Origin: Bryum argenteum
Taxonomy: Eukaryota > Streptophyta > Bryopsida > Bryales > Bryaceae
DNA length: 64,000 bases
Direction of reading: 5' to 3'
Assembly: GCA_037043015.1 (NCBI GenBank)
Contig: CM073324.1
Span: 4,333,413 to 4,397,412, forward strand
Position 1 is the stretch's first letter. Every line of letters begins with the position of its first letter. Below are positions 1 to 53,142 of the stretch, in pieces. A program made the position numbers and the translations under genes. Under the pieces are notes generated by a model. That model made no database searches. It saw nothing but the letters and a program-made list of their open reading frames with translations, and was not told the origin of the DNA.

Positions 1-90
1 TTACAATTCCAGTTTAGAGTTTCTTGTTGGTAGCAAATCCTAATCATACGACAGCGTACATACTATCCCCAAGGGACTTTTAAGGGTTAA
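1..90 (-). mobile_element. TTAA-MITE family A, terminal part
   Basis: This is the end of a family A element that starts before the window. It finishes in AAGGGTTAA, and the whole stretch is an almost perfect inverted copy of 2556-2645. The family is short and non-coding, and its TTAA plus CCCTTAA terminus is of piggyBac type. Confidence 0.7.
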
Positions 91-549
91 CATTTAGTAC
101 TTCATGGTTTTTATAGTTGATATGCAGTACAAGTTCGAAGTGGATATTAAATGAATCATTCCTAAAATATTTGTACATGCTTGAGATTGTACACATTATA
201 CACATACATTCGTATAATTGATTTTATTAACATGGTGTCATGTGAAAATTTAATTAGTGTCATCATGTGCACTTGCAATTGCAAGAATTCGTGTTGTGGC
301 CATGAAATCTAACTCTAATATGATAATGATCACTAAATAAATGTTTTGAACTTTGAAGATTGTTGGTGTTGATGATTTCAAAATGCTACTTATATCATCA
401 TCATAGAGATTTTATTTCATAAAAGATATCATGGGATCATATCGACAAAGTCTTTTTAACCCATTTCATGATATAAATTTTCGTTTTATTGTGTTCACTT
501 TCTCATTTCCAATAGTTCGAAAGTACAATGAATGTATCAACTCTAGAAC
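91..549. other. AT-rich intergenic DNA, nothing recognised
   Basis: No gene, repeat family or structured element was recognised here. The open frame starting at 431 runs into transposon sequence and is judged spurious. Confidence 0.5.
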
Positions 550-1340
550 TTTACCCCTAAATGTCCATAGGTCTTTTCACTCTAAACACATCATTGTGTT
601 TAGAGTGCCATTAGTGAAAATAAATTTGAGTTACCTCGATCTGAACCAAACATCTTGTGATAGACTTAGTCTAGGTCATGTGGGTCAAATTCTGCATCAC
701 GAGGCCTCATAGATTGCGAGATTGTAACATATAGTACTGAAAAAAGATCCCTAAATTCTTCATTTTCACTTTCAAGTGTATATGCTACCAATAGACTCTT
801 GCAATGGTAAAAACTACCCTTGGTTTTACAATAGACTATGAAATCTCAATAACCCCCTTGAACAAAAAAAAAGCAGAAGAAGATACTTGTTGTGCAAATA
901 ATGGCCTTGCAATGGTGAGAACCCAAATTTTAGAAATGAAAAAAAATGTCCAAAACTAGACCCGAGCAGAAAAATGCATGTCATGTATTCCTCACATCTT
1001 AAATGGATCCAACCACAAAAAATTAGATCTATATTAAAATCCAACCCAACAAACAAAGATAAAATCTAATTGTAGATGAAGAAGATATAGCCCCTTTAGA
1101 ATCATCTATATTTCACTTTTTTCATTATGGAAACACTATTGCAGATTTAATGCCAAAAGTAGTTAGATCAAATATCTTCCAACTTGAAAGTTGTTGAAAA
1201 TCATCTTAAGATTATAACTAATGTCTAATGCCAAAGGCAATTATGGAAACCTAATTGAATTTCAGGTAATCGGCTTGCAATGGTAAAACATGCCAAATGT
1301 TTAAATTCCCAAAAATAAAAGTTGTCTTAGTCAGAAGAAC
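550..1340 (+). mobile_element. TTAA-MITE family E, 3'-truncated
   Basis: The element starts with a mutated target (TTTA) then CCCCTAAATGTCC. It carries family E interior phrases: a 'gaggcctcatagattgcgag' block at about 700 and a 'ttgcaatggtaaaa' block. The far terminus is missing. No coding capacity is seen. Confidence 0.55.
578..607. repeat. Perfect short hairpin
   Basis: A 13-base stem (cactctaaacaca and its exact complement) surrounds a TCAT loop. It lies just inside the 5' end of the family E copy and is not shared by the other E copies, so it is probably a local foldback. Confidence 0.6.
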
Positions 1341-1579
1341 ATCAATAAAGTAAAGTGTGTCAATTTTAAGAATCAATTGGTTCGGAACCATATTTTGGTG
1401 ATATATTATAATATTATTTTAGATTTTCCTTCTATAAAAGAGTACTTTATAATTAATTAGACTATCAAATTCCTAAATCAAAAAGTTATAGTGAAGATTT
1501 TGTTAAAACTTAATGTCATAGTTTTATTGTACTGTTATTTTTTGTAATCTTGTAATTTATATCATGATTGAAATAAGTT

Positions 1580-2280
1580 CCAAATTGCTTATAACTAATA
1601 TGAATGGTATTGAAAGGCATTTCCCACCTTTCTAATTGGTATGTGGAAATGCTTTGAGATATTTGAAAATGATAAATAACTTTTTTCTCAAAAGTGCATG
1701 TCACATATGCACTCTGATATTTTGTATATCATGAATAGTATTTGAAAGTGGATACATGATGTAGAATACAAAATCTTAACTCTCACTCTTTTGCCCCTTG
1801 TCTCATGCCTAGTATTTAATGTAATAATGTTATAAAAGGCTAAAGTCACCTTCTTAGTTAGTATGTAGGAATATCTTGCAATATCTAAAACTAATTAGCA
1901 CCAATTTCCTCAAAGAAAATCTGAAATGTGTACTTTAGTATCTTGTATATACAATGACTATGAACATTGTAATAAGCCTATAGAGCGCTAAAATCACCTT
2001 CTTAGTCAGTATGTATAAATGCTTTAAATCTTTTTGGATACTTAGCACCATTTCACTCAAATGTACACGTGATATGGGCACACTTTGATAATTCTTTGTA
2101 GATACAAAATATTGAGCATACTATTAATCCTATATGAAGCTACACCAATCTATATGAGGCTTCACCTACCTTAAAATGTAGGAATACTTGGAGATATATT
2201 TAAATGATCTTAAAACCATTTTTCTCAAACGTGCACCTGACACGCCCTTGTGATATCTTAAGAAAGGAGAATATCAAAGT
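1580..2280. repeat. Diverged long-period tandem repeat, about 4 units
   Basis: Four diverged units each contain a core like 'caccttcttagtnagtatgta' (near 1626, 1848, 1995 and 2163), then 'ctcaaa-gtgcac' and a 'gatattttgtatat' tail. Spacing is about 150-220 bases. The array sits in AT-rich DNA without a gene. Confidence 0.5.
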
Positions 2281-4355: not shown

Positions 4356-4622
4356 TTAACCCCTAACTCTCCTTAAAACCCGAAACGGGTTTGGAGGTTC
4401 CCGCAGGAGAAAAACTCAGCCAACTTTGACCATTATAATCTCACAAATGAGGAAGAATGAACAGTTCAAATTTGGTATGTGAGAAGAATGTCAAGTGAAC
4501 TTCGAGATCTTACAGTTGAATCTTTTAAATAATGCTTAGATTGAGATTTTTTGAGCTTAATCTAAAGAAAGGTCAAATTTTGTGACTTAGACCATTTTGC
4601 AACAAGGAGAGTTAGGGGTTAA
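4356..4622 (+). mobile_element. TTAA-MITE family B, copy 1
   Basis: This 267-base element starts TTAACCCCTAACTCTCCTT and ends AAGGAGAGTTAGGGGTTAA, so its ends are ~16-base inverted repeats inside TTAA. The interior carries the family B phrases 'cattataatctcacaaatga' and 'gatcttacagttgaat'. It is non-coding. Confidence 0.85.
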
Positions 4623-5838: not shown

Positions 5839-6290
5839 TTAACCCCTAAACGTTCCAGACTTTTTTTAGCCAAAAATCACATTTTCAAAAAAAGTGTCAC
5901 GGATGAAAATGAATATAAGCTATTTAGATATCAATCGTACAAACTTGTAATAGACTTGTTGTAGGTCATGTGAACCAAAAGTTGAGTCATGAGGCCTTAT
6001 AGATTGCAAGATCATAACATATTAGTGCGCAAAACAAGCTACAAAATTTCATCATTTTCACTTTAGAGTGGAAAATCTACCAACAAAGCTACCCCAATGA
6101 AAAAATCTACAACTACAAAGTTGTTCATCTTCATCTCAATAGTACCCGTATGTAAAAAAAAATCATCAGAATAATTACTTGGCTCAAAAAATACCCTTGC
6201 AATGGTGAAAATTGCCCCAAATATTACAAAGGAATAAGATGTCCAAAACTACACTGGTTCCACAAAAATGAATGCCAAAACTTCCACACA
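5839..6290 (+). mobile_element. TTAA-MITE family E, 5' half
   Basis: The element starts TTAACCCCTAAACGTTCC and continues with family E interior up to another E terminus at 6294. Its own 3' end is not visible. Confidence 0.6.
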
Positions 6291-6293: not shown

Positions 6294-6720
6294 TTAACCC
6301 TTAAACGTCCCCAATGTCGTTTTCTACATTTTAAATGAAGGGCAGAAACTTTGAAGAGCCATAACGCCTTCATCCAAACTCCGTTTTGGATGAAATCACT
6401 TGGATTAGGTCCCAAATCAAGTCTAGTGTGTATGGTAAAACTTTCAGAGCCATACAATCAACTATGAATTAATGGCATGCATTTTAGTGGAGGCGGCTCA
6501 AATATTATTTGAGCCAAGAAATCTTTTGATTCTTTTAGGAGAAATAATACCTCATGATCTTGTAATCTACGAGACCTCATCAGTGAGAATTTGACCCACA
6601 TGACATGCGATAAGTCTATACAAGATTGTATGGTTGAGATTTGAATGATCCACCTTCATTTCTATCTATGGTATTTTTTATGAAAATGTGTATCTTGTCC
6701 CAAAATAGGTTGAGACTAAA
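6294..6720 (-). mobile_element. TTAA-MITE family E, internally deleted
   Basis: The element starts TTAACCCTTAAACGTCCCC, followed by the subterminal palindrome remnant 'atgtcgttttctacat' and the E block 'cttcatccaaactccg'. It then jumps to the opposite end of E near 6530. The terminal TTAA of that end is lost. Confidence 0.55.
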
Positions 6721-7453
6721 GTTTTGGATTGTCATTGAAATGATCAAATTCCACAAATTTAAGGTCAACTAAACTCAAACATACCTTATCCCATCGCACA
6801 ACACATAACATATGAAATATTAATCGTTCAAAGATCTTACACTAACGATAAATAAATTATATTATATTGTTCGTCAAGTCTCCTCATATGTGTAAGAAAC
6901 TAAAATCTCAATCTCCCTCGATGCCTATTTTAAAACATGTATCACAACACTACACTAGGGAACTACGTTCAAACCATTCACAAGCTCACATTTGTTCCAT
7001 CCTTCAACATCGCTTCTTCTCTAAGTAAACCTATTTTTTTCTTCTAACCCCTCGAGGCTCGGTTGGCCGCAAAAAATTCATTAAAAATTCATTAGGTGTA
7101 GCAAGTTTTAAATTATCAACTTGAGGATGGGATGGTAAAAAATTAACCATTAGCCACAATCAAAGTACAATTTTGTTGACTACTCCTCGTTCCTATCATG
7201 CTAAAAGTTGTTGGATTGGTGCAACCAACCTCGTGCATCAAGATTCCATGCACCCCACGATGATTATTTTGGACATTGTCCGACTTAGGATTTCGAGAGG
7301 TCAAACTACCACAACATAAATCTTACTTATGTCACATATACATACATACAAAACCCTACGTTCTATTTTTGATGCACCTAGCAACAACATGTTTCTTCGT
7401 TGACCTTCCCTTCAACTCAAGTTTCTCGATAGTAAAAACGTGACGATTAACCC
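6721..7453. other. AT-rich intergenic DNA, nothing recognised
   Basis: No gene, tRNA or clear repeat is seen. A doubled TTAACCC at 7447-7460 abuts the next element. Confidence 0.45.
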
Positions 7454-7822
7454 TTAACCCTTAAACGTCTAAGGTGACCCGAGGGGTCCTTTTCCAACAG
7501 AATCTTCTCTGTAGCTCTCAATGTACTCAACTTTTCACTTATATTTTGATGTCAAACTGGTCACCTTCTTGTCATGCATTCAAAAAGTGAAATTTTAGAA
7601 CCCAAATCACAATTTGTATGAGTGATTTTGTGCTTTGAAAGGATTGTGGTAGGTAGGTTGGGGTTGTACAATACTTGTAGGAGGTTGCAAGCTCAGCATT
7701 GATTGGATCATTCATGATGCCCAAGTTCAAAAACTGCACTATTCATGATGCTCGAGTCCAAAAGATGCTGTGATCCAATACTGGGCTGCCCAAATCCGTA
7801 TAGCCTGACGTTCAAGGGTTAA
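7454..7822 (-). mobile_element. TTAA-MITE family C, inverted copy 1
   Basis: This 369-base element starts TTAACCCTTAAACGTC and ends GACGTTCAAGGGTTAA. It contains family C blocks ('cttgggcatcatgaatagtgc' type, inverted). With 8077-8445 it forms two facing C copies around a B element. Confidence 0.8.
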
Positions 7823-8080
7823 ATTTCCTTGTTGCAAAACAGTCTAAGTCATAAAATTTGACCTTCGTCTATATTAAGCTGAAAAAATCTCAATCTAAAC
7901 ATTATTTAAAAGATTCAACTGTGAGATCTCAAAGTTCACTTGACATCCTTCTCACATACCAAATTTGAAGTGCTCATTCATCCTCATTTGTAAGATTATA
8001 ATGGTCAAAGTTGGCTCAGTTTTTCTCCCGCGGGAACCTCCAAAAACCCGTTTTCGGTTTTAAAGAAAGTTAGGGGTTAA
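7819..8080 (-). mobile_element. TTAA-MITE family B, inverted copy 2
   Basis: The inverted family B element lies between two C elements. It shares its TTAA with each neighbour and has lost the CCCCTAA of its left end. The right end, AAAGTTAGGGGTTAA, is intact. Confidence 0.8.
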
Positions 8081-8445
8081 CCCTTAAACGTCCATGGGGT
8101 CTGAAACATGCAGCCCAAAATTGGATCACAACATCTTTTGGACTTGGGCATCATGAATAGTGCACTTTTTGAACTTGGGCATCATGAATGGACCAATCAA
8201 TGATGAGCTTGCAACCTCCTACAAGGTTATGAACAACCCCAACCTACCTACCACAATCCTTTTAAAGCACAAAATCATTCATACAAATTGTGATTTGAAT
8301 TGTAAAATTTCACTTTTTGAATGCATCACAAGAAGGTGACCAGTTTGACATCAAAATATAAGTGAAAAGTTGAGTACATTGAGAGCTACATTGCAGATTC
8401 TGTTGGAAAGGACCCCTCGAGTCACCTTGGGCGTATAAGGGTTAA
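8077..8445 (+). mobile_element. TTAA-MITE family C, copy 2
   Basis: This 369-base element runs from TTAACCCTTAAACGTCCATG to GGGCGTATAAGGGTTAA. It is near-identical in reverse to 7454-7822, so the C-B-C block can fold on itself over about 1 kb. Confidence 0.8.
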
Positions 8446-11807: not shown

Positions 11808-12056
11808 TTAACCCCTAAAGGTTCTTGATGCAAAATTGTAAAAATGGACATTCCCTTACTTCAGGCCTTAAAACTCTCAATCTAAGAATTATTTGGAAGA
11901 TCCAACCGTAGGATCTTGAAGTTAATTCAATCTTCCACTCACTTGCCAAAATTGAACCTTTGATTCTTCTTCATTTGTGAGATCATAATGGTCAAAGTTG
12001 GCTGAATTTTGGACTCCAAAAAGCAGTTTTCGCTTTCCTGGACCTTTAGGGGTTAA
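11808..12056 (-). mobile_element. TTAA-MITE family G, complete
   Basis: This 249-base element starts TTAACCCCTAAAGGTTC and ends GACCTTTAGGGGTTAA. Its interior is related to inverted family B ('atttgtgagatcataatggt', 'gatccaaccgtaggatcttg'), with a different core. It is non-coding. Confidence 0.75.
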
Positions 12057-18354: not shown

Positions 18355-18621
18355 GTAACCCCTAACTTTCCTTGAAACCCGAAACGGGTTTTGGAGGTTT
18401 CCGCAGGAGAAAAATTCAACCAACTTTGACCATTATAATCTCACAAATGAGGAAGAATGAACGGTTCAAATTTAGTATGTGAGAAGAATGTCAAGTGAAC
18501 TTTGAGATCTTACGGTTGAATCTTTTGAAGAATGCTTAGATTGAGATTTTTGAGCTTAATCTAAAGGAAGGTCAAATTTTGTGTCATAGACCGTTTTGCA
18601 ACAAGGAAATTTAGGGGTTAA
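18355..18621 (+). mobile_element. TTAA-MITE family B, copy 3
   Basis: The left target has mutated to GTAA, then CCCCTAACTTTCCTT; the right end is AATTTAGGGGTTAA. The right TTAA is shared with the family E element that follows. Confidence 0.8.
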
Positions 18622-19598
18622 TCTGAAAATGATTTCACTCATTTCTTTTCTACTAAAAAAATACATTTTTAGAAACATGTCGTAGATGAAAATGAAGGGA
18701 AGTTGATCAAATCTCAACCAAACAATCTTGTAGTAGACACATTGTAGAACTACTAATATGTGGGTCACATTTTGAGTCATGAGGCCTCATAAATTGCGAG
18801 CTCGTAACATATTTTCTATTTGAAAATTAATCACAAAATTGTAACATTTTCACTCTTAAGTGAAAATGCTACTAGTAAACATGGTGCAGTGAAAGAAATC
18901 ACCAACTACAAAGATGTTCACATGTATCTTGATAACAACTTTGCCTTTAAAAAAATATCATCAAAAAATGATCTTGCCTTGCAATGGTAAAAACTGCCTC
19001 AAATTTTACAAAAGGGAAAAAGTCTAAAACTAGACTCCTTGCAATAAAATTCATGACATGGCATTCGATGGATTTAAGATTTATACCACTATAACTAGAC
19101 TTGTGTTGGAGTCCAACACGACAAACAAAATTGAAATACAACGGTGGATGAAGGAGAAACAATTTCTCAAAAACCATGCATGTGTATAAATAGTTTCAAT
19201 ATAGACACATCATTGCAAATCCAATACTTAAATGATTCTGAAAAAAATTCTTCCAACTACAAAGTTGTTGGACTTCATCTTAAGATCATACTTATGCAAA
19301 AAAGAAAGTAGAAAGTAGAACACTAAAATAGAATTCACATAATTGGCTTGCAATATTAAAACATGCCCCATGTTTGAAAACCCAAAAATAAGAGCTTCCT
19401 TCACTACAATTCATGCCATTAGTTCATACTTTATTGTATGAGACTACATCTTCTATCACGCAAACTAGACTTGATTTGGAACCTAACCCAAGTAATTTTA
19501 TCCGAAACGACTCCAAATGAAGAAATTGTGACTCTTCAAAGTTGTTGTTTTCCATTCAAAATGTCGATTTTTCGACATTTGGCGTGCTTAAGGGTCAA
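18618..19598 (+). mobile_element. TTAA-MITE family E, nearly full length
   Basis: This ~980-base element follows family B directly. It ends with the subterminal palindrome 'atgtcgatttttcgacat' and GCTTAAGGGTCAA. The interior 'gaggcctcataaattgcgag' block is present. Open frames within it differ between copies, so it is judged non-coding. Confidence 0.7.
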
Positions 19599-19817
19599 GA
19601 TTCTCATAAGTAGAGAGTGAACATTATAAACTTGTGTGTTTCGGATAAGTCTATGCCTCCAACTTAAAAAAACCATGTGCAATTTAATAGAAATCCATAA
19701 GTTTTGATTTAAATTGAGTTACAATACCGTGCTTTAAGCTTTGCACATAATTCACTAGTGCACAAGTGTCCAACGACAACCTGGGATTACACCCCACAAG
19801 TACAAGTCCACCACTCA

Positions 19818-20322
19818 GGGCCGCTTTACACGAGGGGCCAAGCCATTGATGGGGCCAATTCATGGCCAAATCCTTTCTTGGGATTGGTCGAATTCTTGAA
19901 ATTGGCCCGAAGGGCTTTACTTAAGTAGTCAAGGCCAATTTTTTGAAATTAGATTATAATGGGTGGGGAACAAGTTATAACACAGCCCGTGCTTCAAAAG
20001 TTGTGAGATACAAGAATGGAAGGCCAATTCATGGCCTAGAGGCGATTGCTAAATTTCAATACAAAATCATTATTTCACTGGAGTATTTTAATGTGAATAA
20101 ATCAAAAGCATGGAATGAAGCTAATAGTACGAATTGGCCCCATGGCTCTATTTTTCCTTTTAGAAATCGGCCCTAAGGACTTTACACATGGGGGAATTGG
20201 CCCCTACTTTATAAATTGTTTGATGTGTTCTCAAAGTGACCCATGGAGCCAATTGGGCTCAAAATATAAGTGAATTGGCTTGAAGATTTGTTGGCCTTGA
20301 CTTCCCATGTAAAGCGTCCTTT
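19818..20322. mobile_element. Foldback element with GGGCCGCTTTACA ends
   Basis: The left end AGGGCCGCTTTACACGAGGG and the inverted right end (complement AAAGGACGCTTTACATGGG) form an imperfect inverted repeat. The interior is rich in GGCCAATTC or GAATTGGCC in both orientations and could fold. No clear target duplication is seen, so the superfamily is open. The 77-residue frame inside is not called. Confidence 0.5.
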
Positions 20323-20819
20323 AGTATTTAGTATGCCAGCAAGTGTAGAACACCACTTTCCAAAAACCGGCAAGTAATTAAACCTACCGTCTCCACTTCG
20401 ACTCGAGTCAAACCATCCCGCATCATTTGCACTTACGGTAAGATGAGGACCCGAGTATACACACCATTACACCACCTTTCTCCTACGGAGTACTTGTGGA
20501 CACTTTTCTGCTAGTGATTCTAAATAATTTGTATGACTAATCTACAAGCATAATTTCCTACAATCTTTACTTTCTTTTTTCTTTTTTTTCTTTTTTTTCT
20601 TTTTTTCGGTGCATAATCAAGGTAGAATGGTAAAGAATGGAAAATACCAATAATGGATCACTAGACTTATTCACTCAAATGTACATTACAACTATTTTGT
20701 CCGGTTTTCTATGTACCTATAAATAAAATGATAGGTTCCTAGTTTAGGGCACTATTTTAGAAACACTATAAGTCTACTTTCGGTAAAGTGCTCACTGCTT
20801 TTAGTTTTGACTCAATGTA
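20323..20819. other. Intergenic DNA with CT-rich run
   Basis: Only a T-rich run with interspersed C (about 20571-20606) stands out. Confidence 0.4.
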
Positions 20820-21339
20820 AGGTACAATGCTCTTAAACCGCTCGGCACCCCAAAACCGATCAGGCCCCATTCCTAGATTGTAAAAGAACAGATATACCTC
20901 ATTCGTACATTTGAGTATGTGAGCGGTTTAAGGTCATGTACACTTTTGACTTCATAAATTTCTTGCAAATTCAGCTTTTGCTATTTAATTGTGGAAATTT
21001 TCGTCCTCAAAGCCCTTTGGGGGGATACTATGTCAAGTATCTTCAAGGCACTAGTAACTAGGCTAGAAACTAGCGTAGTTATAGTGTCCACCCTCGAGAG
21101 GGGGAAGTAGTATTGTTCCAATTTCCCCTTGTCCGGTGGCCATCGGGATATTAGCATTACGAACAGACACTTCATTCACGCCGGCCCCATGAGAAAGGGA
21201 CCAGAGTTTCTATTTATTTATGGAAATTTTCGCACTCACTCTCCCCCTGTTTCCGCATCCAAGAAAAATTTCAAATAATAGACATGAAGTCACAACCATG
21301 CTGAATCGCTTATTCGAGCGGTTTAAGGGCAGTGTACCT
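20820..21339. mobile_element. TA-flanked MITE, AGGTAC ends
   Basis: The ends are 24-base inverted repeats with two mismatches, starting AGGTACAATGCTC and AGGTACACTGCCC, flanked by TA on both sides. A second copy of the end motif ('gagcggtttaaggtcatgta') lies at about 20921. TA duplication suggests Tc1/mariner-Stowaway type. The block near 21160-21225 recurs at 39765-39825. Confidence 0.65.
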
Positions 21340-26490: not shown

Positions 26491-26497
26491 GGTTACA

Positions 26498-29598: not shown

Positions 29599-32080
29599 AT
29601 GAGTAGTGTGGGCTTTGTGAAGGACGATATGAAGAGTGATGATCAGGAGCACTTCGTTTCCAAGGCTCAGCAGCTGCTGCGCGATGCCGCTGATGGTTTG
29701 GGAAACAAAACTTTTGTCAATGTGGGCGATGTTATTCCCGTTGATCTAGACGCTGGATATCTCAGGTAAGCAGATTCTCACGATTGAGCACCAATTCTGA
29801 TATTGGGTTCTACCTTAATTTTGGAAATGGGACAAGTGAGTGATGGATATTGAGCACCATTTCATGTTTGGGGTTTAGGGTTTAGTGTAAGTTGGAATTG
29901 AGATAGATTCTCTGAATTGATTGATCGATCGATGGGGTACCATTTTATGGGTTGGGTTCTTAGGGTTGAGGCTAAGTTGGAAACGGGGCAGAATGTCTCA
30001 GGTGGTTGATTGATCAAGCGGAATATCAGACAGCATTTCGTGCTTGCGCTTCAGGGTTTAGTGTTTAGGGTACCTTGGAACTGAGATCGAACGTATCAGG
30101 TGATTGATTGATGAAGCGAATTGGGCATCATTTCATGTTCTGGGTTTCTAGGGTTCAGGGGTTAAGCTAATTTTTGAAATAGAGACGGTGATATTCTTGA
30201 CCATTGGGCACCATTTCATGTTTTTAGGGTTTAGGCTAATTTGGAAATGGGATAGGTGATTGATTCATCAAGCAGAGTATTGGGCAGCATCTAATGTTTG
30301 GATTGTAGGATTTTAGTGTAACTTGGAATTGAGACAACAGAACGTCTCAGGTGGATTGATCGAGCGAATTTCATGGTTTGAGTTTTTAGGGTTCAGGGTT
30401 TAAGCTGATTTTGGTGAAATTCCCACTATTTCTGACTGTGATTCAGGGGTCATGGGACGCATCCCGTCAACAATGAGCTTCTAGCGACTTTGTGTGGATA
30501 CGTGGAGCGTGTGAACAAGCTGGTGACGGTGCGGCCCCTTCGAGCCAGGTAATGTTACATTCATTCCATATAAAGCATGCTGAGTAGTGTTTGTGGAGAC
30601 CCTTCTGTAGTTTTCGAGGTTGGAAGCCACAACCCCTTTTCACAACGGGATGTATGAATCGAATCAATCTTCAATTGTAGTTTCATTCTTCAAGCCACAA
30701 TAATATGTTTTGCTACTTCATTTCCGAATGGGAACTTCGAGAGCTTTAGGATCAGTACGAGAGACCAATGATCATGTGTGCTTGGTGTGTCAGGTACAAT
30801 GCAGAGACCGGGGACGTGGTGGTTGGTCGAGTAACTGAGGTATAACAAATTCATGCTTCTTCTTCCTACTTCGAAGTTTTTTGATTCTTCTTTTCTGGCA
30901 TTGACGAATTTGTTTGTACATTCTCGCGTGTTCTCGCAGGTTGGTGGTAATAGATGGAAAGTGGATGTGAATTCAAGAAAAGATGCAGAATTGTTGTTGG
31001 CTGCTGTCAACTTGCCTGGTGGTATACAGGTGAAGCAGCTTTCTAACATCGTATTTTGTTCTAATTTAGTCCTCACCTAGCTGCTGAGTTAGAAACCAGG
31101 TCCATACCTCTGATGATATGAGAACATGAAAGTGGCTTGTGCTTCTTCCTTAATGTTCCCCCGTGTGACTGCAGAGAAGGCGCACAGCTATTGACGAGTT
31201 GAATATGCGAGATTTGTATGTAGAAAATGACCTTATCAGTGTAAGTACTTTGATTCTTCCTAATATTCTATGCCCTAGTATCAATCAAGACCATCAAGAG
31301 TTCATTTAACTTTCCAGCTCTAGTTTGATACATATCGCTACTTTGAAGCTCTCACAGATTTGAAAGTGGCCAATGTTGGCACTTGCTTTCAACCCCTGAA
31401 GCTCTTTATTCTCTCTCTGTACCAAATCCATAAGAGGCTCGATGCAACGATATTAAGATTCTTTGTAACTACCTTTTGCATGAGCACTCATCACAATACT
31501 CCTAATTTTGAGCAGTCTTTACTAAAGTGTGGAGTGTTGATTCCTTTTTCATCAGGCTGAAGTGCAGAGTCTGCATCAAGATGGGTCTCTTCACTTGCAC
31601 ACACGAAGTCTTAAATACGGCAAGGTAACTGGAGTTTCTTTACCATTGAAATGGAAGAGGAATTGTTATGTTCTTATGTGTTGATTGTGTGTATGGCAGC
31701 TAGGAAACGGGCAGCTGGTGAGAGTGGCACCATATTTGATCAAACGGCTGAAACAGCACTTTCACCAGCTGGCGGATCTCGGTGTGGACGTCATATTAGG
31801 TTGCAATGGCTTCATCTGGATAGCTGCCACTTCCGGAAGTAAGGACAATCCCGGGCAATTAGCCACTGGGAATGTGGACTTCGATGCAAGGGAACGAATC
31901 TGCAGGCTTGCGAACTCAGTTCGTGTCTTAGGAGCCCTGGGTCTTGTGATCTCTCCAGACTCCATTCTCCAGACTTACGATGCTAGCCTTGAGTGGGGAT
32001 ACTCTGTGAAGGATATGTTGTCCGCAGATTTCCATGTTAAGCTTGCGGAGAAGGAAGCTCAGCAGCGGACCAGGCGCTAG
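29599..32080 (+). CDS. RRP4: Exosome complex component RRP4
   Basis: RRP4 is a cap subunit of the RNA exosome, the 3'-5' RNA-processing complex of nucleus and cytoplasm; cap proteins bind RNA and guide it into the barrel. Exons are 29599-29765, 30447-30548, 30794-30839, 30940-31029, 31175-31240, 31556-31624 and 31700-32080, all with GT-AG introns. They join in frame to 306 residues, close to the usual size of the family. An N-terminal domain is followed by an S1 domain (about 92-170, starting GDVVVGRVTEVGGNRWKVDV) and a KH domain whose GCNGFIWIA core lies near residues 214-222. The ATG at 29599 starts the conserved reading frame. The gene stands alone: X repeat upstream, nothing recognisable for kilobases downstream. 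Two broken copies of its first exon lie at 23011-23300 and 27388-27672. The assignment is firm; exon edges are by eye. Confidence 0.93.
29780..30425 (+). repeat. Degenerate minisatellite in RRP4 intron 1
   Basis: Seven or so units of about 65-95 bases fill the intron. A unit reads roughly 'gggcaccatttcatgtttgg', then TTTAGGGTTTAGG, then 'taattggaaatgggac' and 'caggtgattgattgat'. Unit starts lie near 29788, 29853, 29937, 30030, 30126, 30209, 30283 and 30368. Plant telomere-like TTTAGGG occurs repeatedly. Confidence 0.7.
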
Positions 32081-34342: not shown

Positions 34343-34645
34343 TTAACCCTTAAACGTCCACGGGGTCAGCCCAAAATTGGATCATAACATCTTTTGGACT
34401 TGGGCATCATGAATAGTGCACTTTTTGAACTTGGGCAGCATGAATGAACCAATCAATGATGAGTTGCAACCTCCTACAAGGTTATGTAGGACCTCAACCT
34501 ACCTGCCACAATCCTTTCAAACCACAAATTCACTCATACAAATTGTGATTTGAATTGTAGAATCTCACTTTTAGAATGCATCATAAGAAAGTGATCAGTT
34601 AGACATCAAAATATAAGTGAAAAGTTGAGTCACAGCAGAATCTGT
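34343..34645 (+). mobile_element. TTAA-MITE family C, 3'-truncated
   Basis: It starts TTAACCCTTAAACGTCCACG and follows family C for about 300 bases ('cttgggcatcatgaatagtg'), then loses similarity before the right terminus. Confidence 0.7.
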
Positions 34646-35463: not shown

Positions 35464-35668
35464 TTGTTTCATCCCTTTTACCATTGCCCTCTCCACAAAA
35501 ACAATTGCTTCATCCCTTTTACTATTGCCCTCTCCACAAAAACAATTGTTTTATCCCTTTTACTATTGCCCTCTCCACAAAAACAATTGTTTCATCCCTT
35601 TTACTATTGCCCTCTCCACAAAAACAATTGTTTTATCCCTTTTACTATTGCCCTCTCCACAAAAACAA
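35464..35668 (+). repeat. 41-base tandem repeat, five units
   Basis: The five units are nearly identical, each holding 'cccttttactattgccctc' and 'tccacaaaaacaattg'. The period is not a multiple of three, and the frames at 35343-35711 and 35452-35679 are by-products. The high identity implies recent expansion or homogenisation. Confidence 0.93.
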
Positions 35669-36239
35669 TAAACTTTTGACAGTAGAAGTACGTGATTATG
35701 TTCCGGTCTAGAAGTACGTGATTATGTCACTCAAAAATTCATTTTTGATTTATCATGGTCACGACTCTTGGTCCATAGTGTAAAGGGACCCTCATTGAAT
35801 AAGAGGGAAAATTGGTTTAAATTTATCAAGTCAAAATGATTCAAATCCATGATGAAGCAAAAGAGGCAAGTGGAAGAACTCTCTTCAAGGTATAGGTTTC
35901 GAGGTTTGGAGTCAATAACTTTGGAACATGCATACTTTGATCGAAATTATTCCATACAATTTGAAAAATTTGCATGCATGTATAATATTTTTCTTTTCCA
36001 CTCCCTAAGTTCTACACTATGGGCCGATTTACACTATGATGAAGAAGTCCACCTGTCAAGAAATTAAGGAATATTAAGGAAAATCTCAAACATGTTCAGG
36101 TGAAAATGAGGCTCGTAAAATGTGATTGGTCGAAAAATCAATTCTTCACCGACCGGTGGTCATCTCCACCAAACAAACATTTGCACATTGTACACTACAA
36201 TTACTAAAATGCATGTAGTGTTTTCAAAATATCTTGGAT
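35669..36239. other. Intergenic DNA with an element-end-like phrase
   Basis: Near 35773 'tagtgtaaagggaccctca' resembles the inverted end of the 19818-20322 foldback element. Nothing else was recognised. Confidence 0.4.
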
Positions 36240-36827: not shown

Positions 36828-37968
36828 CTACTCCAAGCTCAAAGAAACTCAATTCAAGCATTAATCATAAGATCCAACTGTAGGATCTTCAAGTTAACTT
36901 GACCCTTTACTCAAGTGTCAAATTTGAACCGTTAACCCCTAAAAATCCAGGAAAACCGATTCGGTTTTCTAAGATTTCGGGCAGCTCATTTTAAGCATTT
37001 AAATTGATATTTTTGCCTAAGATTTTTATTGGGTGCTCCCCATACAGTAATGTTTCAAAGTCAAATTTTAATTTTATAACCTTCACCTAGAAATTTTAGG
37101 TTTCAAGTCCAAAACGGGCAATTTAAAATAATTTTTTTTATTTTTATTTTTTTTAGAAATATGTTCATTACCAAATTACTATTCAAATTCCAAATTGTCC
37201 GAAGTCAAAAAGTTTACCAATTTTACAAGGGCAGCCTCCAAAACTTTCAAAAACAATCTTCACAATTTCTAGTAATTTTACAATTTTTTCTTTCAAAAAT
37301 TGCCAAAATTCGAGATTTTGGATTTTTTCCAAGATTTTTTTTTTCGAAATTCACATTATCATAAATGCACCTTCTCACCGTCGAGATTTTTCTCAAACTA
37401 AATATATCATATGTGGTGCTTGTTTTACTATATGGTTGTTTTTAGACCTTCTTTCATAAAATATTTTACATTAAGGTCAAAAAGTGGAATTGGTCTCTAG
37501 AATTTTGCATGAGCATAACCAACTTGATTACCTACATGAAAAAAAATGAGGGAAAAATATTTGGAATAACAATCATCAAGTTGCCCTTGGCACCATTTAG
37601 ACAATGCCTCTCACGCAGCGGCAAAAAAAAAGTGTTGGTCAAACTTTGATTGTTATGATCTCACAAATGACAAACATCCAACGGTTGAAATTTTGACCAG
37701 TCCTTTGTATACAAGTTAGGTACAAGATCTTACGGTTCAAAGTCTAAAACTAGAAAAAAAAGTTTCTCCATTTCCCCATCTCCCAACGAAGGTGAAAAAT
37801 GGCAGTTTTTGGTTCTGGAGGTCGAGGAAACCCTTGGATTTTTAGGGGTTAATTCTTCTGCGATTCTGAGATTATAATGGTCAAAGTTAGTTGAATTTTT
37901 TCCCTGCGGTTGAAAAATCCCAAGAAGCCATTTCAACCTTCTTGGATCTTTAGGAAAGTCAAATATGG
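36820..37968 (-). mobile_element. B/G-type TTAA-MITE split by a nested family D
   Basis: The left part ('gatccaactgtaggatcttc' to 'ttgaaccg') and right part ('gattataatggtcaaagtta' to 'cttggatctttagg') are the two halves of one B/G-like element. They are separated by family D exactly at TTAA. An A-run of about 32 (36792-36823) precedes the left part. Confidence 0.7.
36932..37852 (+). mobile_element. TTAA-MITE family D, copy 1 (nested)
   Basis: This 921-base element has TTAACCCCTAAAAATCCAGG at the left and GGATTTTTAGGGGTTAA at the right. It is near-identical to 40060-40992 (inverted) and 48880-49816. A 67-residue frame at 37161-37364 recurs in the copies but looks like low-complexity Phe/Lys sequence, not a transposase. 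Confidence 0.85.
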
Positions 37969-38479: not shown

Positions 38480-38747
38480 TTAACCCCTAACTTTTCTTAG
38501 TACCCGAAACGGGTTTTGGAGGTTTCCGCAGGTGAAAAACTCGGCCAACTTTGACCATTATAATCTTACAAATGAGGAAGAATGAACGGTTCAAATTTGG
38601 TATGTGAGAAAAATGTCAAGTGAAATTTGAGATCTTACGGTTGAATCTTGTAAGTGATGCTTAGATTGAGATTTTTTGAGCTGAATCTAAAGGAAGGTCA
38701 AATTTTGTGACTTAGACCGTTTTGCAATAAGGAAATTTAGGGGTTAA
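38480..38747 (+). mobile_element. TTAA-MITE family B, copy 4
   Basis: A complete 268-base copy: TTAACCCCTAACTTTTCTT to AAATTTAGGGGTTAA, both TTAA intact, with the 'cattataatcttacaaatga' interior. Confidence 0.87.
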
Positions 38748-39504: not shown

Positions 39505-40059
39505 ACAAGAGGAGATGTGTGGTATTTCAACCACAATTTTCACCAAAAATGTCTTGTCTCACGAAGCTTACACGGAAATATAACTACCACACTTGTGCGA
39601 GTACCCAAATATCAAATGAATGTGATGTTTGTATCACCCATAAGTAGATTTAAATTTTGCATTCCTTGGATGACTCTGCAGAGTCCCAAGAGGATGGCAA
39701 CTCTAGAAGGAACTCAAAAACTCCAGGGACACTGATCACAGTTGTGCAAGAGAGCATTACGAAAGCACACTTCATTCATGCCGGCCCCTTAGAAAGGTAC
39801 CGGAGTTTCTATCTATCTATGCAAGAGAGCATTGGTTAGCTTGAGCTCCAAGGATACAGTGTCGGTACACATCATGGTAGAAACGAGGGGAATGATGGAA
39901 AACGCCAAGTGAAACCTCTCCCCCACCCCACTTTTAGGGCCCATTCTCGTGTGAGACCCGTCCCCGTAATTCCACTGTAAAAGCCCTTGAAAAATGATGT
40001 GGCCACCATGGAGGAAAGATTATGAAGGACCATTCACATGCCATATCCAAATTCAACCC
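38748..40059. other. Intergenic DNA with unassigned open frame
   Basis: A 129-residue plus frame at 38796-39185 has mixed, non-repetitive composition and higher GC than its surroundings. I recognise no domain, so it may be a gene fragment or chance. A (TA)n run is at 39464-39502. The block at 39765-39825 repeats 21160-21225. Confidence 0.4.
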
Positions 40060-40992
40060 TTAACCCCTAAAAATCCAGGGGTTTCCTCGACCTCCAGAAC
40101 CAAAAACTGCCATTTTTCACCTTCGTTGGGAGATGGGGAAATGGAGAAACTTTTTTTTCTGGTTTTAGACTTTGAACCGTAAGATCTTGTACCTAACTTG
40201 TATACAAAGGACTGGTCAAAATTTCAACCGTTGGATGTTTGTCATTTGTGAGATCATAACAATCAAAGTTTGACCAACACTTTTTTTTTGCCGCTGCGTG
40301 AGAGGCATTGTCTAAATGGTGCCAAGGGCAACTTGATGATTGTTATTCCAAATATTTTTCCCTCATTTTTTTTCATGTAGGTATTCAAGTTGGTTATGCT
40401 CATGCAAAATTTTAGAGACCAATTCCACTTTTTGACCTTAATGTAAAATATTTTATGAAAGAAGGTCTAAAAACAACCATATAGTAAAACAAGCACCACG
40501 TATGATATATTTAGTTTGAGAAAAATCTCGACGGTGAGAAGGTGCATTTATGATAATGTGAATTTTGAAAAAAAAAATCTTGGAAAAAATCCAAAATCTC
40601 GAATTTTGGCAATTTTTGAAAGAAAAAATTGTAAAATTACTAGAAATTGTGAAGATTGTTTTTGAAAGTTTTGGAGGCTGCCCTTGTAAAATTGGTAAAC
40701 TTTTTGACTTCGGACACATTGGAATTTGAATAGTAATTTGGTAATGAACATATTTCTAAAAAAAAAATTAAAAAAAATTATTTTAAACTGCCCGATTTGG
40801 ACTTGAAACCTAAAATTTCTAGATGAAGGTTATAAAATTAAAATTTGACTTTGAAAATTTTACCACATACACATTACTGCATGTGGAGCACCCAATAAAA
40901 ATCTTAGGCAAAAATATCAGTTTAAATGCTTAAAATGAGCTGCCCGAAATCTCAGAAAACCGAATCGGCTTTCCTGGATTTTTAGGGGTTAA
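40060..40992 (-). mobile_element. TTAA-MITE family D, inverted copy 2
   Basis: A 933-base copy with intact TTAA ends, near-identical to the other two D copies. Its right TTAA is shared with the family C element that follows. The 67-residue frame (40548-40751) is identical to that of copy 3. Confidence 0.87.
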
Positions 40993-41351
40993 ACGCCCAT
41001 GGGGTCTAAAACGGGCAGCCCAAAATTGGATCACAGCATCTTTTAGACTTGGGCATCATGAATAGTGCACTTTTTGAACTTGGGCACCATGAATGAACCA
41101 ATCAATGATGAGCTTGCAACCTCCTACAAGGTTATGTACAACCCCAACCTACCTACCACAATCCTTTCAAACCACAAAATCATACATACAAATTGTGATT
41201 TGAATTGTAAAATTTCACTTTTTGAATGCATCATAAGACGGTGACCAGTTTGACACCAAAATATAAGTGAAAAGTTGATTACAGTGAGAGCTATAGGGAA
41301 GATTCTGTTGGAATCAAGCCCCTCGGGCTTGCTTGGGCGTTTAAGGGTTAA
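40989..41351 (+). mobile_element. TTAA-MITE family C, copy 4
   Basis: It starts TTAAACGCCCATGGGG (terminal CCCT lost where it joins D) and ends TTGGGCGTTTAAGGGTTAA. It is the second element of the three-element chain 40060-41930. Confidence 0.8.
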
Positions 41352-41930
41352 CCCTTAATCGTCACCGGTGACCAAATTGGTCACCAAGGTCATTGTTTTT
41401 GTTTTTCGGGTCCGACACAGTGGTAGGGTGCAAATCTTGTCCAAAGGCACCCCTATTCTTTTGTTTTTCAGAATCCAATGCTCCTTCCCGATCGCCTTCT
41501 TGAGGTTTGTGTGATCCGCACAAAATTGTAGGGGCCACGTGATCCCATGGTCAATGCTCTTTGACTTGGCCTTTCTTTTTATTTTTTTGACGATTTTTGT
41601 TCAAAATAATAAAATATCTTGATCTTTATCCCTATACCATGCTCTATGATGCCAATTTTCAGAAAAAATGACCCAAGGGGGAAAAACCAAAAAAACAATA
41701 TGATATTTCTCACTCATCCAAAACATTTTTTTCTCAACGGTGCCATTTTTTGAGATTCTACCCGATGTGATCAATCTTTTTTGCATTGGTCACATCACCA
41801 AGTTACCTTGATAACCACCGTTTCCGATTCTCAAAATTGTTTTACCTTCAGTGCAGAAATAAGGCCAGAAGACAATGAGGTTGCATTTCTCTCCAATTTG
41901 TGGGAAACAAGGATGTTAATTAAGGGTTAA
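41348..41930 (+). mobile_element. TTAA-MITE family J
   Basis: This 583-base element shares its left TTAA with family C. Ends are TTAACCCTTAATCGTCACC and (complement) TTAACCCTTAATTAACATCC. A near-palindrome 'ggtgaccaaattggtcacc' lies just inside the left end. It is the only copy in the window, and no coding is seen. Confidence 0.7.
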
Positions 41931-43254: not shown

Positions 43255-43522
43255 TTAGCCCCTAACTTTCCTTAAAACCCGGAACAAGTTTTGGAGGTTA
43301 CTGCAGGAGAAAAACTCAGCCAACTTTGACCATTATAATCTCACAAATGAGGAAGATTGAACGGTTGAGATTTGGTATGTGAGAAGAATGTCAAGTGAAC
43401 TTTGAGATCTTACGGTTGAATCTTTCAAATAACGCTTAGATTGAGATATGTTGAGCTTAATCTAAAGGAAGGTCGAATTTTGTGACTTAGACCGTTTTGC
43501 AACAAGGAAATTTGATGGTTGA
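43255..43522 (+). mobile_element. TTAA-MITE family B, decayed ends
   Basis: Left end TTAGCCCCTAACTTTCC and right end TTTGATGGTTGA, so both target sites have mutated. The interior is typical B. Confidence 0.75.
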
Positions 43523-45244: not shown

Positions 45245-45831
45245 TTAACCCCTAACTCTCCTTGAAGCCCAAAATGGGTTTTTGCAATTGGGGACATCCT
45301 AGATGAAGGGGTTAGAAGTAATATTTTTGCCTAAGAGTTTTATTGGGTCCTCCTTATACTGCAACATGTATGTGGTAAAATTTACAAAGTCAAATTCCAA
45401 TTTTTGAGTCTTCTAGGACGATTCTTGGGTGGCGAGCCAAGATGGGGCAGTTTAAAAAAGTAACTTTTTAAAAATTTGTTTTTTGAAACATGTTCATTAC
45501 TAAATCACTACTCAAATTTCAAAGTGACCCAAGTCAAAAAGTTTACCAATTTTACAAGGGCAGCCTCCAAAATTTTCAAAACTTATCTTCGCAATGCCCA
45601 AAAAAACTTGGGAGACAGACTTTGGATGTTACGATCTCTCAAATGGTAAACATCCAACTGTCAATTTTTTGTACAGTAATCAAGCATATTCTTAGGTACA
45701 AGATCTTACGGTTTGGACGTTTTAAAAAAAGAAAAGAAATTGGTTCACACCCCCACGAGTGCTTAGAGGTAGAGAATCGCAGTTTTGAGGTTTCAAGCTC
45801 CCAAAAAACACTAAGGAGATTTAGGGGATAA
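45245..45831 (+). mobile_element. TTAA-MITE family K (B-like start, D-like core)
   Basis: It starts like family B (TTAACCCCTAACTCTCCTTG), then follows a diverged family D interior ('agtttaccaattttacaagg', 'tacaagatcttacggtttgg') and ends ATTTAGGGGATAA. It appears to be a mosaic of B and D. The right target is shared with the next B copy. Confidence 0.65.
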
Positions 45832-46095
45832 CCCTTAAGTTTCCTTAAAACCTGAAACGGGTTTTGGAGGTTCCCGTAGGAGAAAAACTCAGCCAGATTT
45901 GACCATTATAATCTCACAAATGAGGAAGAATGAACGGTTCAAATTTGGTATGTGAGAAGAATGTCAAGTGAAATTTGAGATCTTACGGTTGAATCTTTTA
46001 AATAATTCTTAAGATGAGTTTTTTTAAGCTTAATCTGAGGGAAGGTCAAATTATGTGACTTAGACCGTTTTGCAACAAGGAAATTTAGGGGTTAA
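45828..46095 (+). mobile_element. TTAA-MITE family B, copy 6
   Basis: It starts ATAACCCTTAAGTTTCC (mutated target) and ends AAATTTAGGGGTTAA. It directly follows family K. Confidence 0.8.
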
Positions 46096-46876: not shown

Positions 46877-47148
46877 TTAACCCCTAAACGACCACAGCCA
46901 TCGATTCGGCTTTTACGGTCAAGGCCAAAAGAAATTTACATTCAACTTCAATTGTTATGATCTCACATCCAGTGATGATCCAACGGTTGAAAATTTTCAC
47001 ACTACTACATATGGTAGTCTACTTCAAGATCCTACGGTTGAAGTTATCAGAAATTTCCAAAAATATTGAACGTACCCGCATTAGTACATAGTGGTCAGTG
47101 TTGGGATTTCAAGCTCCCAAAACATCGTGGACCTTTAGAGGTGGGATA
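46877..47148 (+). mobile_element. TTAA-MITE family F
   Basis: It starts TTAACCCCTAAACGACCAC and ends in a decayed GGACCTTTAGAGGTGGGA. The interior carries 'gttatgatctcacatcc', 'gatccaacggttgaaaat' and 'caagatcctacggttgaa', motifs shared with B, D, G and K. Confidence 0.65.
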
Positions 47149-47444: not shown

Positions 47445-47712
47445 TTAACCCCTAACTTTCCTTAAAACCCGAAACGGGTTTTTGGAGGTTCCCGCAGGAG
47501 AAAAACTCAGTCAAATTTGACCATTATAATCTCACAAATGAGGAAGAATGAACGGTTCAAATTTGGTATAGTAAAAGAATGTCAAGTGAACTTTGAGATC
47601 TTACGGTTGAATCTTTTAATAATTTCTTAGATAGAGATTTTTTGAGCTTAATCTAAAGGAAGTTCAAATTTTGTGACTTAAACCGTTTGCAACAAGGAAA
47701 GTTAGGGGTTAA
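47445..47712 (+). mobile_element. TTAA-MITE family B, copy 7
   Basis: A complete 268-base copy: TTAACCCCTAACTTTCCTT to AAAGTTAGGGGTTAA with both TTAA intact. Confidence 0.87.
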
Positions 47713-48879: not shown

Positions 48880-49816
48880 TTAACCCCTAAAAATCCAGGA
48901 AAGCCGATTCGGTTTTCTGAGATTTCGGGCAGCTCATTTTAAGCATTTAAACTGATATTTTTGCCTAAGATTTTTATTGGGTGCTCCACATACAGTAATG
49001 TGTATGTGGTAAAATTTTCAAACTCAAATTTTAATTTTATAACCTTCATCTAGAAATTTTAGGTTTCAAGTCCAAATCGGGCAGTTTAAAATAATTTTTT
49101 TTATTTTTTTATTTTTTTAGAAATATGTTCATTACCAAATTACTATTCAAATTCCAATGTGTCCGAAGTCAAAAAGTTTACCAATTTTACAAGGGCAGCC
49201 TCCAAAACTTTCAAAAACAATCTTCACAATTTCTAGTAATTTTACAATTTTTTCTTTCAAAAATTGCCAAAATTCGAGATTTTGGATTTTTTCCAAGATT
49301 TTTTTTTTCAAAATTCACATTATCATAAATGCACCTTCTCACCGTCGAGATTTTTCTCAAACTAAATATATCATACGTGGTGCTTGTTTTACTATATGGT
49401 TGTTTTTAGACCTTCTTTCATAAAATATTTTACATTAAGGTCAAAAAGTGGAATTGGTCTCTAGAATTTTGCATGAGCATAACCAACTTGATTACCTACA
49501 TGAAAAAAAATGAGGGAAAAATATTTGGAATAACAATCATCAAGTTGCCCTTGGCACCATTTAGACAATGCCTCTCACGCAGTGGCAAAAAAAAAGTGTT
49601 GGTCAAACTTTGATTGTTATGATCTCACAAATGAAAAACATCCAACGGTTGAAATTTTGACCAGTCCTTTGTATACAAGTTAGGTACAAGATCTTACGGT
49701 TCAAAGTCTAAAACCAGAAAAAAAAGTTTCTCCATTTCCCCATCTCCCAACGAAGGTGAAAAATGGCAGTTTTTGGTTCTGGAGGTCGAGGAAACCCCTG
49801 GATTTTTAGGGGTTAA
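48880..49816 (+). mobile_element. TTAA-MITE family D, copy 3
   Basis: A 937-base copy with intact TTAA ends, near-identical to 36932-37852 and to the inverse of 40060-40992. The flanks 'gtcagcccccc' and 'ggggggctgac' are inverted copies, so D may sit in the loop of an older foldback. Confidence 0.87.
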
Positions 49817-50275: not shown

Positions 50276-50339
50276 CAAATTTCCCATGCTAAAAATTGAG
50301 CCACTATTAAGCATCTTATTAAGAATAGTGAAAATAATC

Positions 50340-50774
50340 TTAACCCCTAAACGCCCAAGGGGGGGTAAAGCTCCTAACAATTGGTAATAATGCTGATTTT
50401 TTCAAAACTGCGTAAAAACAAATAAAAGATGAAAATGAAAAATCCAACCGTAGGATCTTCTTTGGAGTATGGCAATCAATATGACCGCCAAGTTGCATGC
50501 CATTTGGAGGTATGGATTTCAAGATCCATGCAAAAAAGGGGTGAAGATCACACCACCAAAACTTTCATGAAAAATCTCTTTCGTCCACTCTCACAAATTG
50601 AGGATCAAGGTTTTTACTATTTATCCAAGGAGGGAGTAGAGTAAACCCACCGAGGAGTTGAGCAAAAAAAACGGCGGATGAAAAATCGATGGGATGAAAG
50701 CGGGGTTGTGCACCAAAGACGGAGCCTCACATCCAGAATGTCGAAAAACGACACTGTGGGCGCTTAAGGGTTAA
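50340..50774 (+). mobile_element. TTAA-MITE family H
   Basis: A 435-base element with TTAACCCCTAAACGCCCAAG at the left and (complement) TTAACCCTTAAGCGCCCAC at the right. The perfect subterminal palindrome 'atgtcgaaaaacgacac' near 50739 is shared with family E. Short frames inside are not called as genes. Confidence 0.75.
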
Positions 50775-51340
50775 ATAGGATAGGTAATTCAATGAGCAGA
50801 CCCATCACATTGGTTGTTACTACAACAATGTTGTACCATATTAATGACTTTGCCTTCAACAACATTAGTGTGCCCTTGGTGCATTGTCACACCAAAAAGA
50901 ATACTTGGAGATTGGTAATTCCTCTGTATGACCCTATCATGAACCAGTCCATGTCCTTGTCTTGAACCTTAATCCTCTCTCTTTCCTAAACACCGACCCT
51001 GCCGCAAACCTTGACCCTATCCCAAACCCTATCTTTACTCTTGTGCCTATCTAACCCGATGTTGTTAAGATAAAAAGGCAAAAAGGCCATCCAATTTACT
51101 ATTTTAATTTTGTAACTTTAGAGAATTTCATCTTTTTGCAATTTTGAGAATTTTTGGTACCATGAATACTTTGAAGTCTCATATCATGCAATGCTTACAT
51201 CGGGTTGGTAATCTAATTGTTAATGGCACTCCTACAAAAATATGGGTTTCCAATGACACCTCCGGCACCAAATGAACAAATAGTCTCCAAGATCTTATTG
51301 ACAACACCACCACCTAACAAATAAAATTCTATCTTAACTC
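50775..51340. other. AT-rich intergenic DNA, nothing recognised
   Basis: No gene or repeat was recognised. Confidence 0.4.
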
Positions 51341-52266
51341 TTTACCCGTAAAGGTCCAAGCATTTTGTAGACCTCGGAAATCAAATTCGCCGTTTTTGAC
51401 CACCTTGACCACTTCGGTATCTTTGACTGTAAGATCTTGAGCCTTACTACTTGCACAAATACCAAATAAAATTTCAACCTTTGGATTTTTACCAACTTTA
51501 AGATCATAATGTTCATAGTTGACTAGATATTTTTTGGGGGGCTTTGCTTGAAAAACATAATCCAAATGGTGTCAAGGGAGACTTGATGATTGTTACTCCA
51601 AACATTTTGCCATATTTTTTTCCATATAGGTAATTAAGTTGGGTCCGCTCATACAAAAATTTAGAAACTCATTCCGCTTATACAATCTTCATGGAAATTA
51701 TTTTAAAGAATGTCTATATACAACAACATAGTAAAACATGCATTGCATATTGGTAATACTTAGTTTAAGAAAAAAATGAACTGCAAGTAGGTGCCTTTCT
51801 GAGCTTTTGAATTTTAAGACTATTTTTTCTTGAAAAAAATCCAAAACCTCAAATTTTGACAAGTTTTGTAAGAAATAATTTTGAAGTTACTAGAAATTGT
51901 GAAGATTTTTTTTGTAATTTTTGGAGGTTACCTTTGTGATTTATTATTATTTATTATTATTTTCATTTTTTTTTTCGACTTAGGTCACTTTAGAACTTGA
52001 ATAATGATTTTGTTGTGAAAATATCTCTCATAAGAAAATAATTTTAAAATCTAAATTTAAATAGCCTTTCCCGGACATGACACCTAAATTTTTTCGATGG
52101 AGGTTTTAGAAGTGGAAATTGGCTTTGTCAATTTTACCACATACACTTTGGAGTACAAGGAGCACCTTGTAAATCATCTAGGCAAAAAAATGACTTTTAA
52201 CTCCTTTATCTAGACTCTTTGAAATTGCGAAAAGCACAATTTGCTTTCTTGGACCTTTAGAAATGA
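51341..52266 (-). mobile_element. Diverged D-like TTAA element
   Basis: Old, inverted family D relative: start TTTACCCGTAAAGGTCC, end TTGGACCTTTAGAAATGA. It keeps D landmarks ('taattaagttgggtccgctc', 'attttaccacatacac') at moderate similarity. Its right end abuts a family E start. Confidence 0.6.
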
Positions 52267-53142
52267 ACCCCTATGCATCCCAACCTATTTTTTTAATCCA
52301 AAATGAAAACTTTTAGAGAAAATAAATCTAAAATTTTCAAATCCCAAAGGTCCAATCTTACAGTAGACTTTCCTAAGTTCACATGGACCAAAATTTGAGT
52401 CGTGAAGCCTCGTAAAGAGATTGTAAGTTTGTAACGTATGGGTACCAAATATAAACCACCAAATTTCTTGAATCCCACTTCAATAACACTCTTAGACTAG
52501 AAAAATACATTAAAATATATATCTTGGCTCAAATAATAGCCTTGCAATTGTGAAAAGTGCTAAAACCTTACAAAGAATTTATTGTCCAAAAATACACCCC
52601 TTGCACTCAAATTCTTGCCTTACCTTCAAAATACATGTGATTAAGTCAAGGTTCGCCACCACTAAAACTACACTTAACGGAATCAATCCCAAAAAATGAA
52701 GTTGAGATCCAACGTAAATGAAGGAGATATTAACTCCTAAAAAATCATTCATGTTTTCCACTTTTTCATCGTAGAAATATTATTGCAGATCCAATAGTAA
52801 AAGTATCTAGATCAAAAATCTTCCAACTACAAAGTCGTTAGATTTCATCTTGAAATCATTCTTATGCAAACAAAAAATCACAAAAAAAATCACATAATTG
52901 GCTTGCAATGGTCAAACATGTTGCATGGTTGAAAACTCAAAAACAAAAGGCCTCTTTGACTAAAATGCATGCCATTTATTCATACTTCATTGTATGAATT
53001 TGCAACTTTTACCACATAAACTAGACTTGATTAGTGACTCAACCCAAGTGATTTCATATTCCGAAGAAGGTATGGCTCTTCAAAATTTCTGTCTTTCATC
53101 AAATTGTGATGATTTCCGACATCAAGGACATTTAGATGTTAA
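52264..53142 (+). mobile_element. TTAA-MITE family E, 879 bases
   Basis: It starts TGAACCCCTATGCATCCC and ends AAGGACATTTAGATGTTAA, so only the right TTAA is intact. The E interior is present in order. The subterminal palindrome is decayed. Confidence 0.65.

Follow-up and report, generated by a model that had tools for sequence, protein, structure and literature searches.

The 64-kb window analysed here (the whole stretch of DNA under study, 64,000 nucleotides, G000:C4:4333413-4397412 of a 258.8-Mb assembly of 25 contigs) is crowded with short repeats that are flanked by TTAA and share CCCYTAA ends, and which very probably are miniature inverted-repeat transposable elements (MITEs) of the piggyBac superfamily, whose best-known hosts are insects. 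Exact end sites occur 36 times in the window (TTAACCCYTAA, n = 19; TTARGGGTTAA, n = 17), whereas 100 first-order Markov sequences had 0.1 on average and never more than 1, and a chance origin was rejected on this basis. TTAA stands directly 5' of CCCYTAA in 19 of 28 occurrences and directly 3' of TTARGGG in 17 of 28. Matched TTAACCC...GGGTTAA ends bound 14 stretches of 232-985 bp, one of which (45245-46095) consists of two abutting elements. The 14 copies bounded by terminal inverted repeats (TIRs) were grouped into eight clusters; the ten or more families proposed in the first-pass annotation become plausible when truncated copies and copies with degenerate ends (e.g., those at 46877, 47948, and 49999) are added. 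DNA related to the matched-end stretches and to elements fetched from the same genome covers 16,959 of the 64,000 bases (26.5%), and 31.5% of positions 1-53142, in agreement with the earlier estimate of roughly a quarter of the window. The mirrored ends described in that annotation exist as TTAACCC...GGGTTAA pairs, but the uninterrupted inverted match is only 14-16 bp long (15, 14, 16, 15, and 16 bp in the elements at 4356, 36932, 40060, 47445, and 48880) and the sequences vary beyond CCCYTAAACG, with CCCCTAAAGATCC, CCCCTAAAAATCC, and CCCCTAACTTTCC among other end variants. The subterminal regions of the window MITEs also differ between left and right.

The elements are listed below (no strand assigned; L numbers are fetched transposase loci).
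1-90: piggyBac-type MITE right end, cut at the window edge; TTARGGGTTAA at 80-90; 26 end bases equal the left end of the 2556 element
2556-2787: 232-bp MITE; TTAA on both sides
4356-4622: 267-bp family MITE; resembles transposase-bearing L037 at 89% over the left 37 bp
5839-6254: truncated copy; left end TTAACCCCTAAACG intact
6294-6499: truncated copy; left end TTAACCCTTAAACG intact
7447-8080: 267-bp family MITE; its end TTAA hosts the 7454-7822 insertion; the rejoined end fits the family at 47 of 51 bases
7454-7822: 369-bp class MITE; inserted into the end TTAA of 7447-8080
8077-8445: 369-bp class MITE; one TTAA common with the preceding element
11808-12056: 249-bp MITE; 70-75% like the 267-bp family
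18355-18621: 267-bp family MITE; flanks GTAA left, TTAA right
25250-26234: 985-bp family MITE; lies in a local repeat; two of five aligned empty paralogs read a single TTAA here
34343-34630: truncated MITE; left end intact
36932-37852: 921-bp family MITE; inside a 267-bp family relative; eight paralogs ungapped over the site, TTAA in none
38480-38747: 267-bp family MITE
40053-41351: 369-bp class MITE; end TCAACCCTTAA hosts 40060-40992; 53 of 54 bases of the rejoined end agree with a genomic copy
40060-40992: 933-bp family MITE; nested in 40053-41351; identity 96.3% to the 36932 copy and 98.8% to the 48880 copy
41348-41930: 583-bp MITE; one TTAA common with the 40053-41351 element
43255-43513: 267-bp family relative; left flank TTAG; without intact right end
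45245-45831: 587-bp MITE; corresponds to the two L037 ends over 165 bp on the left (69%) and 241 bp on the right (75%); interior missing
45828-46095: 268-bp MITE; abuts 45245-45831, with a common ATAA
46877-47142: MITE fragment; 46916-47142 88% identical to the L034 right end
47445-47712: 267-bp family MITE; left 40 bp 90% like L037
47948-48255: degenerate copy; left TTAACCTTCAAACACCC, right TTAACCCTTAAGACG
48880-49816: 937-bp family MITE; matched at its end regions by L040, L024, L032, and L026
49999-50275: 277-bp MITE; diverged ends
50340-50774: 435-bp MITE

An AIR9 gene lies to the right of these elements (56396-62563, forward strand; uninterrupted frame of 2,055 amino acids (aa), ten A9 repeats). 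This gene, together with five genomic SAM_LFY (LEAFY-family) matches (best E 1.1e-28), identifies the host as a plant, as the first-pass annotation had supposed, and the size and organisation of the genome suggest a moss. The window further holds a KH_6 domain frame (31685-32080, forward strand; Pfam E 2.5e-14), presumably of an exosome RNA-binding subunit, a dense cluster of inverted-orientation repeats with broken repeated reading frames (19298-29352; 76-96% alike over 118-348 bp), and a 41-bp tandem repeat of five copies with 96% matches (35464-35669).

The same ends are abundant throughout the genome. End type TTAACCCYTAAACG has 9,205 exact matches (control 7) and a second type, TTAACCCCTAAMDNTCC, has 7,447 (control 0). 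The two patterns are mutually exclusive at base 13, and together they amount to at least 16,652 exact ends. CCCYTAAACGYCC occurs 6,293 times (control 515), and TTAA followed by the same 13 bases occurs 5,636 times (control 0). The 369-bp MITE class contributes 1,127 exact-ended copies (control 0). The repeats are short, of high copy number, and have ends in common with transposase-bearing elements, although several families share short end stretches only.

A profile search of the genome with PF13843 (DDE_Tnp_1_7) yielded at least 116 scored matches, the best 116 of 775 candidates (281.6 to 241.2 bits), and none in 14 control genomes, a weak control because those named are prokaryotes. Twenty of the 116 loci were fetched, then three more (L041, L042, and L043). 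End pairs were picked by eye, and in 14 of the 20 loci a TTAACCC...GGGTTAA pair was accepted around the transposase, with the ends 4.5-6.6 kb apart. The termini begin with CCC, yet this test was not independent because the search pattern itself required CCC. Longer elements that combine the same kind of ends with a piggyBac DDD transposase, for which the first-pass annotation had advised a search, are present in the same genome, and PF13843 transposases between like ends support its view of TTAA plus a CCC terminus as the piggyBac signature.

Stop-to-stop frames through the domain span 469-1,187 aa, with one in-domain stop in 4 of the 20 loci. Five long frames (831-1,186 aa) had PF13843 as their sole Pfam match above the cut-off, starting at residue 368-715 and with no Pfam match before it. 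As the best solved relatives, phmmer retrieved Trichoplusia ni (T. ni) piggyBac (6x67; 7.1e-26) and piggyBat (9c0f; 2e-20), which have the same transposase domain. Equivalents of T. ni D268, D346, and D447 are present in 20, 19, and 20 of the 20 transposases; the sole exception, L027, also has an in-domain stop. The T. ni element has CCC ends and a cysteine-rich C-terminus, and a cysteine-rich motif was found downstream of the domain in 17 of the 20 loci (15 in the domain frame), the loci without a match being L021, L023, and L025. TTAACCCC, located 212-223 bp upstream of the domain in L021, L022, and L025, was taken as intragenic. T. ni piggyBac resembles the plant elements in domain, DDD residues, and TTAA target, but it is shorter (2,472 bp as opposed to 4.5-6.6 kb) and encodes a 594-aa protein as opposed to the 831-1,186 aa of the five scanned frames (PMC10140906, cited, like all papers here, from excerpts).

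Identities and a tree separated the transposases into five lineages (L021/22/25/30/36; L023; L024/26/31/32/34/37/38/39/40; L028/35; and L027/29/33), which are 35-48% identical to each other and 23-29% identical to the two animal proteins (24-29% for T. ni piggyBac, 23-29% for piggyBat). L023 (G000:C3:13763000-13772500), a lineage of its own, has a 1,008-aa open transposase frame with the DDD residues, but it lacks an accepted TTAACCC pair and does not match the cysteine-rich motif; it may be an old copy or a host-adopted gene. Contig C1, the largest seen (44.1 Mb, 17% of the assembly), carries 5 of the best 116 transposase matches, 2 of 86 Ras-family exon matches, and 37 of the 150 best-scoring Copia matches listed. 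A sex chromosome, U or V, is our guess as to what C1 might be.

The ends of the MITEs are colinear with those of the transposase-bearing elements, and several window MITEs match both ends. The 921-937-bp family aligns with the inner right-end regions of L040, L024, L032, and L037 (250-340 bp, about 71-77%) and with the left 53 bp of L032 (77-81%), and the 46877 fragment matches the right end of L034 at 88% over 237 aligned positions.

Three of the transposase-bearing elements, L041, L042, and L043, lie on contigs C4, C8, and C9. Over 5.7 kb they share 99.8% identity (1-4 mismatches and 6 gap openings in each pair), and no sequence beyond the elements aligned at the threshold used. Because three copies of this length on three contigs are so similar, movement of L041-type elements was recent. 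The 831-aa frame of L041 is shared by L043, and L042 has a differing one. In addition, L026 and L034 agree at 99.2% of 5,937 aligned bases; their flanks differ, and three large indels separate them.

Ends that read CCCTTAA contain a built-in TTAA, and insertions were found in such ends. In addition to the two nested cases of the window (7454-7822 within 7447-8080, 40060-40992 within 40053-41351), another was identified at L021:8610, and rejoining the host ends restored the family terminus at 47 of 51, 53 of 54, and 53 of 56 bases. The exact nested-end pattern, TTAACCCTTAACCCYTAAA, occurs 351 times in the genome (control 0), as opposed to a rough expectation under random choice of TTAA of 25-71 (window TTAA density) or up to about 110 (the lower density of all fetched DNA). 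Composite copying and clustering may explain part of this excess, which is therefore a lead only.

We place at about 0.96 the probability that the window repeats are non-autonomous piggyBac MITEs derived from, and mobilised in trans by, transposase-bearing lineages of the same genome. The MITEs would be internally deleted or end-sharing derivatives of several such lineages, whose transposases would recognise the CCCYTAA-type inverted termini, excise the elements, and so mobilise the MITEs in trans; insertion would take place at TTAA, rarely ATAA, with duplication of the four bases. We infer action of these transposases on the MITEs, precise excision, and activity up to the present day. Another superfamily with AT-rich targets would be a very improbable source, whether Stowaway (Tc1/mariner, TA), Tourist (PIF/Harbinger, TWA), or Kolobok or Sola3, both of which insert at TTAA. 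TTAACCC can indeed be parsed as TA plus ACCC, but the elements with like ends enclose PF13843 transposases and the direct ATAA...ATAA duplication has four bases instead of two or three, on which grounds Tourist and Stowaway were rejected; no search was made for the transposases of these other superfamilies. Ends of a known non-piggyBac superfamily, which the first-pass annotation had named as evidence against its proposal, did not appear, as the ends are those of piggyBac elements. The other outcome that it had named, a TTAA that belongs to the element as the start of an inverted repeat TTAACCC, without target duplication, is hardly credible at all. Since TTAA is palindromic, most copies are uninformative on this point: the 302 kb of fetched DNA contain 44 candidate end pairs, and TTAA flanks 35 of them on either side. 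One pair (L042) has direct ATAA/ATAA, another, a 369-bp inverted repeat with CCCTTAAACCG ends (L021:1904-2272), has AATG/CATT flanks that are mirrored, not direct, and the remaining pairs have unequal flanks. The 369-bp class, however, has direct ATAA...ATAA flanks in 11 copies and mirrored ATAA...TTAT in none, and L042 lies within ATAA...ATAA, a direct non-palindromic duplication, while L041 and L043 lie within TTAA...TTAA. The five ungapped paralogs of the 25250-26234 site have a single TTAA in two cases (GTAA, CTAA, and ATGA in the others), and abutting end pairs in fetched DNA have one common TTAA in five cases versus two TTAA in one. TTAA as a part of the element was rejected on this evidence, and it is a target duplication. 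Indels of at least 40 bp between the paired copies L021/L022, L026/L034, L031/L032, and L029/L033 included no TTAA-bounded MITE insertions, and therefore provided no empty sites.

Besides the mirrored flanks in L021, several observations weigh against a piggyBac origin of the window repeats through TTAA insertion and mobilisation in trans. No end pair was accepted in 6 of the 20 loci (L023, L025, L027, L030, L035, and L038), and the eight ungapped paralogs of the 36932-37852 site read TTCA (six), TTGA (one), and CTCA (one). Among the 14 elements compared, the 232-, 369-, 435-, 583-, and 985-bp families had no two-ended match and no direct source; they match only short end or inner stretches, several of them only the outermost 20-40 bp. 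The cysteine-rich end of L041 (the one copy in which this frame was read) is in a different frame from the long open reading frame, so that L041-type copies may have been moved in trans. Finally, no movement was observed. As for the age of these elements, a recent arrival from an animal, a fungus, or a virus would fit the occasional distribution reported in plants (PMC12732532) and the high similarity of L041-L043, but it is unlikely. The coexistence of five divergent lineages, each 23-29% identical to the two animal proteins, points to a long residence or to several old arrivals (the comparison covered the plant transposases and these two proteins). One scan of 2.9 million viral contigs by sequence pattern gave 43 matches, none of which was confirmed as a relative.

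Elements of this kind are already known, and what is new is the host, the scale, the diversity, and the recent copies. The first-pass annotation was fair in calling piggyBac poorly documented in land plants, although the superfamily is not absent from them. In the excerpts, PiggyBac is among the superfamilies found in every taxonomic group studied (PMC4438587), 1,230 PiggyBac copies are tabulated for a fern (PMC6890710), PiggyBac is one of seven superfamilies of angiosperm MITEs, classed by ends, targets, and interior (PMC10004981), and a 2025 paper calls piggyBac occurrences in plants occasional (PMC12732532); a plant MITE review from 2025 has no instance of the term 'piggyBac' in its main text (PMC12595863). 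The PiggyBac MITEs of angiosperms (PMC10004981) and insects are likewise short inverted-repeat elements assigned to PiggyBac, whereas here transposase-bearing elements with like ends occur in the same genome. Plant Tourist and Stowaway MITEs are also high-copy short inverted repeats with AT-rich targets (PMC10004981), but differ in target length, ends, and transposase. We found no paper on piggyBac in mosses among the matches listed for the open-access subset of PubMed Central, which were in part judged by title. For the moss Ptychostomum knowltonii, a TIR share of 29.13% has been reported, of which CACTA is the largest part (PMC11704416). That published moss TIR annotations contain mislabelled piggyBac is a guess on our part, but those with a large TIR share deserve a check.

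Where plants have been described as occasional piggyBac hosts, these elements make up a quarter of a 64-kb window, and one genome has exact ends in the thousands. We see about even odds that piggyBac is a dominant, old, and recently active superfamily in this lineage, probably one of mosses, where several coexisting families and MITEs in the thousands are masked by other TIR labels in published annotations, and that the built-in TTAA of CCCTTAA ends makes the elements mutual landing sites, giving nested and abutting clusters above random TTAA choice. With near-identical copies whose flanks differ, a piggyBac native to plants can be tested directly, as a tool as well as with regard to the spread of these elements in plants.

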